A DNA stretch of 50,624 bases, taken from contig JAPPBX010000024.1 of NCBI GenBank assembly GCA_026702755.1, positions 1 through 50,624 of the forward strand, written 5' to 3'. The notes below the pieces were generated by a model. The model saw nothing but the letters and a program-made list of their open reading frames with translations. It ran no database searches and was not told where the DNA came from. The position numbers were made by a program, and so were the translations under genes. The stretch comes from Candidatus Poribacteria bacterium. Its GTDB lineage: Bacteria; Poribacteria; WGA-4E; WGA-3G. Positions 35,890 to 39,323 of the stretch are shown here, piece after piece. Each line of letters begins with the position of its first letter. Position 1 is the first letter of the stretch.

Positions 35890-36921
35890 ATGAAAAACTA
35901 CACATTCATCCTTATACTCCTACTTGCCACCCCCGCCTGTGCAACCGCCGCAGACTATACTGACGACGCAATCCGAACCTTACTACCGTTCGACGCTATC
36001 CCTGCCATTACCGAACCACAATTTGTGTCAGCAAGTGAAGCAAAATTAGACGCGGATGCCCCCGTCATCGGCGTAACCTTCAACGATGAAAGCCACGCCT
36101 ATTCGCTCTATCTGCTAAATGGACACGAGATCGTCAACGACATTGTCGGTGGACAGAAAATTGCAACGACGTGGTGACCACTCTGCAAAACGGCTATCGT
36201 GTATAGTCGAGAACTTGACGGTAAGACTTATACTTTCGGGGTGAGTGGCAAGTTGTGGCGAGACGCATTGTTGATGTATGACCATCAGACGCGTTCCCTC
36301 TGGTCGCATATTACTGGAGAGGCGATACAGGGACCGCTCAAAGGCAAGCGGCTGAAGTCCCTCGCCTCCATGCCACAGATTGCGTGGAAAACATGGCAAT
36401 TCAACTATCCAGAGACGCGGGTATTATCTGTGCCCACCAGAATTGGCATGCAAGAGAGTAGAAGCCGGGATGTCTATGCGGACTACCACACCAGTCAGCG
36501 TGCCGGTGTAAGTGGGATGAAATACACTGACAACAGACTGCCGAATAAATCCCTCGTGATCGGCGTTCAGGTGCCAGGGAAGGACGGCACCACACAGTTC
36601 CGTGCCTATCCGTTGACCCATTTCGCCGAAACCGCTGTCATCAACGATACCCTTGGCGAGGTGCCGCTGTTGATTTTCCATGACAAAGCGTCGTTCGCAA
36701 CGGCAGTTTTTGTCCGGAAAGTTGGGGAGGACGTACGAACCTTCAATCTTCAAGACCAGCACTTCGTAGAGGACAATACGGGAACACGCTGGAATCTCAT
36801 TACAGGAGAGACGGCATCCGGTAAAGAGAAAGGCACGCGTTTGGAACGGCTGCCTGCTGTCAATATCTATTGGTTCGCGTGGGCGCGCTACTACCCTGAA
36901 ACGACAATTTACAGTCAATAA
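35890..36921 (+). CDS. DUF3179 protein, in-frame TGA at conserved Cys (candidate selenoprotein)
   Basis: One frame runs from ATG 35890 to TAA 36921 and is open except for TGA at codon 96 (36175-36177). The protein has a signal peptide (FILILLLATPACATA) and a DUF3179 domain: HEIVNDIVGGQKIATTW, TGA, PLCKTAIVYSRELDGKTYTFGVSGKL. In this family the motif is TWCPLCxTA, so TGA replaces the first Cys of a CxxC. Thirteen bases further on is a perfect seven-pair hairpin (36191-36209) with loop CGTGT; the loop lies 20 bases from the TGA and has G at its second position, meeting the bacterial SECIS description. About 248 codons remain intact after the TGA. A recent nonsense mutation in the Cys codon is the main alternative. 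Confidence 0.75.
36191..36209 (+). promoter_or_regulatory. Candidate bacterial SECIS hairpin
   Basis: CGGCTAT (36191-36197), loop CGTGT (36198-36202), ATAGTCG (36203-36209): seven pairs, one of them G-U. The loop begins 20 bases after the TGA. It overlaps coding sequence, as bacterial SECIS elements do. Confidence 0.6.
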
Positions 36922-37683
36922 TCAATCGTCCAATTCGACGATTTCGCCTGTCATATTGCGATGCATTGTCGGGCGGATGACTAACTCCGGGATGTTGCTC
37001 CGCTGCGGCAGTGTAGCGATAAGCAGTATCGCCGCTGAGGTCTCATTGACATCTACCATCATCGCGCGAGCGTCAGCACCCGGTGGAATTGGACGTTTGT
37101 CCAGAATTGGCGTTGCCACTTCACCGGGAACGACGACACTTGCCCGGATACCTGTGTTTCTTAAATCGGCGTTGAGAAACTCGGTGAAGTTGATAACCGC
37201 CGCCTTCGCCGCGCCGTAAGCGAAACCGCTAAATGGACCCGGCGTGACCGCCGCAAGCGACGAGATATTGATGATCGTTCCCGATTTCGCTTCCAGCATT
37301 GCTGGCACAACTGCTTTCGTACAGAAGAACGTGCCTATCAGATTAGAATCAATAACCAATCGCATCTCTTCAGGGGTCGTGTTGAGGAGCCGCCGATGAT
37401 GCGAACTGTGTCCAGCGTTGTTCACAAGCACATCAATCCGTCCGAACTTATCGAGCACATCGGCAGCCATCCGCTCGACCGTATCGTAGTCAGCCACATC
37501 AAGCGCGTAACTTGCGGCTTTTCCGCCTGCTGCTTCAACTTCGGCTTTAACATCTGTCAATTTCGATTCTGTTCTACCGATAATTACAACCGTCGCTCCC
37601 TCTTGTGCCATTTCGAGGGCAGCACCGCGACCAATACCGCTGCCCCCCCCTGTGATGATACAAACTTGTCCTTCTAAACGCAT
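36922..37683 (-). CDS. Short-chain dehydrogenase/reductase (SDR)
   Basis: A 253-residue classical SDR: cofactor motif TGGGSGIG (about 11-18), NNAG (about 88-91), catalytic Ser in INISSLAA and YGAAK (YxxxK). The NAD(P) specificity is not clear; an acidic residue at the end of beta2 is lacking (IIGRTESK), which fits NADP. It is convergent with the DUF3179 gene and their stop codons abut. The product is cytosolic; the substrate is unknown. The start codon is followed by RLEGQVCIITGG, typical. Confidence 0.94.
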   Translation of the reverse strand: MRLEGQVCIITGGGSGIGRGAALEMAQEGATVVIIGRTESKLTDVKAEVEAAGGKAASYALDVADYDTVERMAADVLDKFGRIDVLVNNAGHSSHHRRLLNTTPEEMRLVIDSNLIGTFFCTKAVVPAMLEAKSGTIINISSLAAVTPGPFSGFAYGAAKAAVINFTEFLNADLRNTGIRASVVVPGEVATPILDKRPIPPGADARAMMVDVNETSAAILLIATLPQRSNIPELVIRPTMHRNMTGEIVELDD

Positions 37684-37707
37684 TTTTACCTCCGACTGAT
37701 AAAGACT

Positions 37708-38376
37708 TCAATCGTTTTGTTCTGTGTCGCGTAGTTCTTGAATCCCCTTCAGAATGGTATCAAGATCAAGGTTATCCACCCATGCATGCCGATCAATGGA
37801 GTAATCACCTTTGCCACCCTTGTATTGGAAAATTTTATCCAAAAGTGCGCGCAATTCGGTATCTTTACATTGATCTACCTCTATATTCAGTTCTTGGATT
37901 TCGCGTACACGCATTGGGAGCACCTCCCGTAACCATATATATGGGTTTTCAAGACGAACGCGAAGCTGAAAATGATAATTTTTCGCCCTTTTAAGCATCC
38001 ACCTATCGGTTGTCAACAAAATATCGGCATCGGCATTTTCCGCACAAGCAATATGCAAGGCATCTAACGGCTTAAACCCGAACGACTCAAGCTGTGTACT
38101 TCTCAATTCCTCCATCGCCCCAACTGAAACATACTGATGTGCATTACGGAGCAGTTTCTTTATATCCTCGCGTTGCGTCAAATTAGGGTTTCTGTTGACC
38201 TCAAAAACTATTACCTCACTCGTAATCCAACGCCACTGTTGGATCTGAAGATAGTCAATAATTGTCTCAATAGCCGTGACTTCACGAAAAATCTGAGACT
38301 GCCTTTCATCATCATACAGACGACTGTAACAACAGGTATCAAGATAGATTTTCAGGCTTTGTAAGTAGGTCCGCAA
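37708..38376 (-). CDS. PIN-domain protein with a C-terminal extension
   Basis: A 222-residue protein. Residues 1-150 are a PIN-like ribonuclease domain: IYLDTCCYSRLYDD (first Asp), FEVNRNP (Glu), KPLDALHIACAE (central acidic pair) and ADILLTTDRWMLKRA (last Asp). The last 68 residues (MRVREIQELNIEVDQCK...) look like an independent small protein, possibly the antitoxin. At 37914 a good start exists: ATG with GGGAGG eight bases upstream (minus strand 37928-37923). So this is either a fused toxin-antitoxin, or two genes in one frame without a stop. The first start is TTG at 38376 with AGGAAGAG. Confidence 0.8.
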   Translation of the reverse strand: MRTYLQSLKIYLDTCCYSRLYDDERQSQIFREVTAIETIIDYLQIQQWRWITSEVIVFEVNRNPNLTQREDIKKLLRNAHQYVSVGAMEELRSTQLESFGFKPLDALHIACAENADADILLTTDRWMLKRAKNYHFQLRVRLENPYIWLREVLPMRVREIQELNIEVDQCKDTELRALLDKIFQYKGGKGDYSIDRHAWVDNLDLDTILKGIQELRDTEQND

Positions 38377-38498
38377 TTGCTCTTCCTATGCTGTGGAAGT
38401 TCACACCTTAAATTATGAAACCGCAGTATAAAAATATATCATATCAGGCTAACAAAAGGAAGGAAACCGTTCAAAGTTGGCCAAAAGCAGTTTATAAC

Positions 38499-39323
38499 CT
38501 ATTTTGGTAAAACGGGTTTCACTGCCGCCTTTACCTCTTTTGATAACGATTCCAGTTCATATTGTGCATCCGAGATTTTATCGCGATGTTCGTCAAAAGG
38601 GTATCCGCCCTTTCCAGTCTCATTGAAATAGACACTCAATTGGTAGCGCTGAAAGATGTTCATGCGCGGGTAATCCTCCGTCCATGGACTTGCATCGTGG
38701 AGCAGATTCGTCGAGAAGATCGCCACATCACCTGCCGCCATGGGCAGTGTAATTGAGGTGGGTGGATCATGCTTCACAGGTAGATTCGGCGGTGTCTGAA
38801 ACAGAGATTTATGACTGCCAGGGACGAGACAAAAACCGGTTCCGGGGGGTACATCTACGAGTGCAACCCACGTCGCGATGTGGCTACAATAGATATGTCC
38901 AGCGGCAGCCTGATAATCGTTGTGTGGATTGCGAAATCCCAGAGGGAATTTAAAGCCGCTATCATCACGATGAAAATGTTGCGGAGCATCGTGTTTCGTC
39001 ATCATCGTGAAATTGCAGTGAAACAGACGTGGGGCGTTCATTGTCAAACCCGCTACAACCCGCATAATATCAGGGTTCATCGCGAGATCTTCAAAGAGAC
39101 AATGCCCATATTGGATATGCCCAATGTGTGTTTTACAAGGCTCCTGCCGTCCACGGTCAAGCGGCGGGGGGATGTCGGCTTCATCAATCGTTAACCAATG
39201 CCGAAGCACCTTTAACATCTCCTCAATCTCGTCCTTCGGGACAACGTTCCGCAGAACGAGAAACCCGTGTAAGTCAAAGTACCACTTCTCCTTTTCCGTC
39301 AATGTGGAATGGATGGTATACAT
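38499..39323 (-). CDS. Phytanoyl-CoA dioxygenase (PhyH) family protein
   Basis: A 274-residue Fe(II)/2-oxoglutarate dioxygenase with the canonical triad: H118-R-D120 (PQHFHRDDSGF), the VPGSHKSLF landmark and the distal His in LLHDASPW, followed by an Arg in YPRMNIFQRYQ. This copy, unlike the two at 29628 and 30511, keeps the Asp and should be a hydroxylase. It faces away from the aldolase gene at 39506. The divergent spacer of 182 bases holds that gene's promoter. Confidence 0.92.
   Translation of the reverse strand: MYTIHSTLTEKEKWYFDLHGFLVLRNVVPKDEIEEMLKVLRHWLTIDEADIPPPLDRGRQEPCKTHIGHIQYGHCLFEDLAMNPDIMRVVAGLTMNAPRLFHCNFTMMTKHDAPQHFHRDDSGFKFPLGFRNPHNDYQAAAGHIYCSHIATWVALVDVPPGTGFCLVPGSHKSLFQTPPNLPVKHDPPTSITLPMAAGDVAIFSTNLLHDASPWTEDYPRMNIFQRYQLSVYFNETGKGGYPFDEHRDKISDAQYELESLSKEVKAAVKPVLPK

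Follow-up and report, generated by a model that had tools for sequence, protein, structure and literature searches.

An in-frame TGA within a gene that is otherwise open may have several explanations: the codon could specify selenocysteine (Sec), or it could be a true stop, an error, or a sense codon under another genetic code. A gene of the DUF3179 family raises this question in the window, by which we mean the whole stretch of 50,624 nucleotides of a Candidatus Poribacteria contig analyzed here. The gene very probably encodes a true bacterial selenoprotein, a DUF3179 member that carries Sec at the UGA of positions 36175-36177. What comparison of sequences demonstrates is the Sec position, the SECIS element, the Sec machinery, purifying selection, and a two-lobe architecture.

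The DUF3179 gene and its surroundings

The gene occupies positions 35890-36921 of the forward strand and, when TGA is translated as U, encodes 343 residues followed by a TAA stop. Its frame is interrupted solely by the TGA at 36175-36177, around which it reads ...ATTW-U-PLCKTAIVYSR... and continues to the TAA; there is no frameshift and no second stop. The whole protein matches the Pfam profile PF11376 (DUF3179) at 261.8 bits (E = 1e-77), far above the curated cutoff of 27 bits, over profile positions 2-292 of 292, and DUF3179 is the only domain in the Pfam scan. No NCBIfam model matched the protein, and a sequence search for relatives among solved structures returned chance matches only. The TGA specifies residue 96, the first position of a UPLC motif, and the aligned codon is TGA in Poribacteria orthologues and TGC or TGT in Cys homologues. 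Cys99 (36184-36186, forward strand), the presumed resolving partner in the UxxC motif, is invariant in Poribacteria and is replaced by Thr in a distant Sec protein, L029 (UxxT). The first-pass annotation of this DNA had described one open frame, save for the TGA, over the length of the family, with the TGA replacing the first Cys of TWCPLC; the profile coverage and the codon alignment bear out both points.

At the N terminus, a Lys followed by a hydrophobic stretch (MKNYTFILILLLATPACATAAD; 35890-35955, forward strand) forms a likely export signal, predicted from sequence alone, and the 343-residue product is probably exported. This end of the protein differs among the aligned DUF3179 homologues. 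The neighboring genes encode an M42 peptidase, an HNH protein, an SDR, a PhyH protein, and an aldolase, and give no clue to function. The SDR and PhyH genes (36922-39323, reverse strand) adjoin DUF3179 in most Poribacteria loci. Because they lie on the opposite strand, they do not form an operon with it; no operon partner was found at the locus, where the downstream SDR gene is convergent.

Selenocysteine machinery and conservation of the TGA

The host assembly (Poribacteria; 5.84 Mb, 96% completeness) holds selA (C10, 598 bits), selB (C86:3666-5561, 351 bits), and, directly downstream of selB, selC (C86:5684-5773, 78 bits), which ARAGORN reports as tRNA-SeC with anticodon TCA. It also holds selD (L097; G000:C96:159939-160862, reverse strand; 356 bits), whose catalytic loop (AGUASK) likewise contains an in-frame TGA and whose product is likely a selenoprotein itself. 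Given this TGA in selD, Sec decoding in the organism is most likely not confined to the DUF3179 gene. The SelD and DUF3179 proteins are unrelated, although both genes carry an in-frame TGA and would be served by the same machinery. Enrichment of selA and selB has been described for sponge symbiont bins (PMC5649159).

Conservation of the TGA was surveyed in 73 genomes of the same order, 68 of which had any DUF3179 match. A TGA-containing copy was present in 66 of these 68; of the two exceptions, one has a C-terminal fragment (G041) and the other has only Cys-type copies (G072). At the aligned codon, TGA is universal among the retrieved Poribacteria orthologues whose sequence reaches the site; TGC and TGT do not occur there. 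Overall, selB was found in 68 of the 72 genomes with a TGA copy, and the four lacking it are only 73-83% complete. Cys-type copies occur in genomes with and without selB alike, and Sec and Cys paralogues coexist in some genomes. Three checks proposed in the first-pass annotation have thereby been answered: selA, selB, selC, and selD are all in the genome, Cys homologues have TGC or TGT at the TGA site, and every close relative covering the site has TGA rather than TGC.

A hairpin downstream of the TGA

The bacterial SECIS has been defined as a hairpin just past the TGA with a small apical loop containing a G (PMC1088965). Such a hairpin lies at 36191-36209 (forward strand), where the arms CGGCUAU (36191-36197) and AUAGUCG (36203-36209) form seven pairs, one of them G-U, around the loop CGUGU (36198-36202). 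Counted from the TGA, the stem begins at +13 nt and the loop at +20 nt, and G is the second loop position. The element fits the bacterial SECIS in its position, in its small loop with a G, and in its retention across orthologues. Folded as a single sequence, it has no extra stability over shuffled sequence (z = 0.11); the case for a SECIS therefore rests on comparison. The hairpin proposed from the window by itself (seven pairs, loop CGTGT 20 nt past the TGA) thus stands in its geometry, with its G in the second loop position, and gains comparative support.

Among 43 unique TGA segments, all seven pairs form at the exact position in 40 and six pairs in 2, while the remaining segment closes its seven pairs over a nine-base loop. 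The corresponding position in 14 Cys homologues yields 2-4 of the seven pairs, and the general frequency of seven pairs at this geometry is 0.15% of positions. The hairpin codons T101-Y105 are nearly frozen at synonymous sites in 55 orthologues (ACG in 53/53, GCT in 54/55, and ATC, GTG, and TAT in 55/55 each), and S106 is encoded only by AGC or AGT, both of which retain the pair. The rest of the gene has a median relative codon entropy of 0.76, and not one of the 150 other conserved degenerate codons has a value of 0.1 or lower.

This synonymous freeze is a stronger test than covariation. Across 27 distinct segments, 98.9% of cells are paired (0 of 500 shuffles reached as high a value, and slid structures gave 16-57%), and three of the seven pairs have changed on both sides. 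These changes trace to a handful of distant sequences, chiefly L029 and L031, and so represent few events. Namely, the TGA copy L029 has a fully compensated stem (CGGGAGU/ACUCCCG, loop GGUCU), and L031 keeps six of seven pairs. A third distant copy, L021, has CCGCCGU/ACGGCGG around a nine-base loop, and the divergent copies L104-L106 have hairpins at about the same place as that of the window. These comparisons show selection on the hairpin at the RNA level.

Alternatives to selenocysteine decoding

A single draft metagenome-assembled genome could, on its own, carry a sequencing or assembly error at this codon, and a gene on its way to loss that had lately acquired a nonsense mutation would look similar. 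Yet several studies have contributed dozens of independent assemblies with the identical TGA, single-contig genomes among them, and dN/dS 3' of the TGA is 0.035-0.097 in comparisons with ten orthologues, in a gene with no other lesion. Error or decay is thus vanishingly improbable, and the absence of downstream decay noted at first pass is confirmed. The frame would also stay open if this organism read TGA as one of the standard amino acids, as happens in codes 4 and 25. Here too the probability is negligible: TGA terminates 5 of the 26 major ORFs of the window and is therefore not reassigned, in-frame TGAs occur in known Sec genes (selD and DUF3179) and are absent from selA, selB, and Rieske genes, homologues have Cys at this residue, and selC, with its TCA anticodon, is a proper tRNA-Sec.

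Automatic annotation would write two proteins at this locus, one stopping at the TGA and another restarting at GTG 36199. An ORF at 36199-36921 does begin with that GTG, which is conserved in all 55 orthologues, but the codon freeze covers the whole hairpin, beyond the GTG, and distant TGA copies with GTT or other codons there still keep a hairpin. Restart would, moreover, break lobe 1 of the protein within a strand and drop the most conserved motif of the family, and the Cys homologues are single proteins. We give it a very slight chance. Error, pseudogene, code reassignment, and restart were all rejected, on the conservation of the TGA, the codon freeze, dN/dS, and the TGA terminators.

Under Sec decoding, the hairpin at 36191-36209 would direct SelB and Sec-tRNA(Sec) to insert Sec at the UGA of 36175-36177, and translation would then run through to the full-length protein. 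The first-pass proposal that DUF3179 uses selenium here is backed by the machinery, the conserved TGA, and selection on the downstream codons.

Sec and Cys forms of DUF3179

The first-pass annotation knew of no Sec-containing DUF3179 member, but the family already appears in the tables of two reviews as a selenoprotein family with the motif UxxC/T (PMC9312934, PMC13188914). Both credit its first description to work from 2007 on the Delta 1 symbiont of Olavius algarvensis. Compared with that case as the reviews list it, the gene studied here shares the Pfam family (PF11376) and the motif class UxxC/T, which takes the form UPLC in the window copy and UPLT in L029. It differs in its host phylum, Poribacteria, and in its clade, which contains only Sec forms and has a SECIS that is nearly frozen. 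Sec-DUF3179 as a kind is therefore already known, and the Poribacteria gene is a well-supported further example; no paper joining Poribacteria and selenoproteins was found in the literature searched.

In a tree of 39 proteins, 21 Sec proteins form one branch, composed of the Poribacteria clade, the distant lineage L031, and a UHLC group (L104-L106). Two further Sec proteins, L021 and L029, fall among Cys forms, and the well-supported branches force at least two Sec/Cys changes. Cys-type proteins such as L022, L023, and L025 have the same two-lobe organization, with CPLC at the same place, but their genes have TGC or TGT instead of TGA and lack the hairpin (2-4 of seven pairs). The residue before Sec is W in the Poribacteria clade, whereas Cys forms have F, Y, or C there.

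Several variants were observed in this family. L029, from a genome of a different lineage, is a UxxT variant (F-U-P-L-T) that combines this motif with its fully compensated SECIS stem. L104-L106, from relatives at the level of another class or phylum, form a divergent Sec group with W-U-H-L-C and without the histidine of the HE motif; the loss of this residue (His79 in the window copy) coincides with a His adjoining Sec. A collagen-like Gly-X-Y insert (e.g., GADGQDGADGQDG) separates lobes 1 and 2 in several Poribacteria orthologues (L070, L075, L077, L083, L084, L086, L116, and L117) and is lacking in the window copy.

Two lobes and a possible role for Sec

The protein consists of two duplicated lobes, which hhalign relates to each other with 99.3% probability (E = 2e-20). 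Lobe 1 (approximately residues 59-181; 36064-36432, forward strand) carries His79, Sec96, and Cys99, and the UxxC motif is restricted to it. Lobe 2 (approximately residues 215-343; 36532-36918, forward strand) is a duplicate without the U/C motif and looks structural. The position of Sec/Cys and the UxxC spacing point, by analogy with established selenoproteins, to a redox role, and we infer that a Sec96/Cys99 redox pair is the best-supported one. In this mechanism, which we favor somewhat, lobe 1 would be the redox lobe: Sec96, as a low-pKa selenolate, would attack a substrate or be oxidized, and Cys99 would resolve the product as a selenenylsulfide. His79 of the LNGHE motif (36124-36126, forward strand), 17 residues before Sec, is a candidate second functional residue, possibly equivalent to the box 1 His of Rieske proteins.

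The comparison with Rieske proteins comes from an AlphaFold model of the protein (pLDDT 75.6). Model residues 65-169 in lobe 1 match NirD Rieske-fold structures with Z scores of 8.1 and 7.7, and residues 233-328 in lobe 2 match Rieske ferredoxins with Z up to 9.0, against a background of 7-8 stated for the tool; the fold matches listed for both lobes are essentially all Rieske-fold (Z 7.7-9.0). The LNGHE His stands 17 positions ahead of Cys/Sec in 33 of 35 DUF3179 members; in five Rieske proteins that this genome also encodes, the box 1 His stands 16-17 positions ahead of the box 2 Cys. On the model, the Sec site may occupy the place of the Rieske Fe-S cluster, with His79 nearby, and the site may bind metal instead. 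Sec, Cys, and His would then hold a metal or Fe-S center on a Rieske-derived scaffold rather than act as a thiol-type redox pair, and the resemblance of C-P-x-[H/C] to Rieske box 2 would agree with this.

Other observations make such a metal site unlikely. The comparison of DUF3179 with same-genome Rieske profiles was empty (hhalign probability 0.1%), no Rieske match (PF00355) was found in the Pfam scan of the window protein, lobe 1 was poorly predicted when modeled alone (pLDDT 42.7), and Z scores of 8-9 barely exceed the background. The classical ligand set CxH...CxxH is not kept: in N-G-H...U-P-L-C, the spacing accommodates His79 and Sec96 but not the other two ligands, the first Cys of box 1 being absent and the His of box 2 being Cys. 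UxxT and UHLC variants also exist, and His79 is missing in the UHLC group (L104-L106). Thus, DUF3179 resembles NirD and Rieske ferredoxins in the predicted fold of each lobe and in the spacing of 17, but no sequence relation was found; given this, the failed prediction of lobe 1 alone, and Z scores near background, we treat the likeness as a lead and make no claim of membership. It is possible, but rather doubtful, that DUF3179 represents a degenerate version of the Rieske fold, present in duplicate, with Sec in place of the box 2 Cys and Cys in place of the box 2 His. If it is so, Sec would have taken over a position that once held an Fe-S ligand, and would serve there as a metal ligand or as a redox center derived from one. 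The two duplicated lobes with a Rieske-like predicted fold are, tentatively, a possibly new aspect of the family.

Significance

With the very probable Sec decoding of this gene, the range of Sec-DUF3179 grows by an entire order of sponge-associated Poribacteria, in which the Sec form is nearly universal, and gene models that automatic annotation would truncate at the TGA are corrected. The at least 55 orthologues, together with Sec copies in other lineages, make a strong natural data set for the bacterial SECIS. For the uncharacterized DUF3179 family, the hint of a Rieske-like fold may offer a first testable mechanistic idea.
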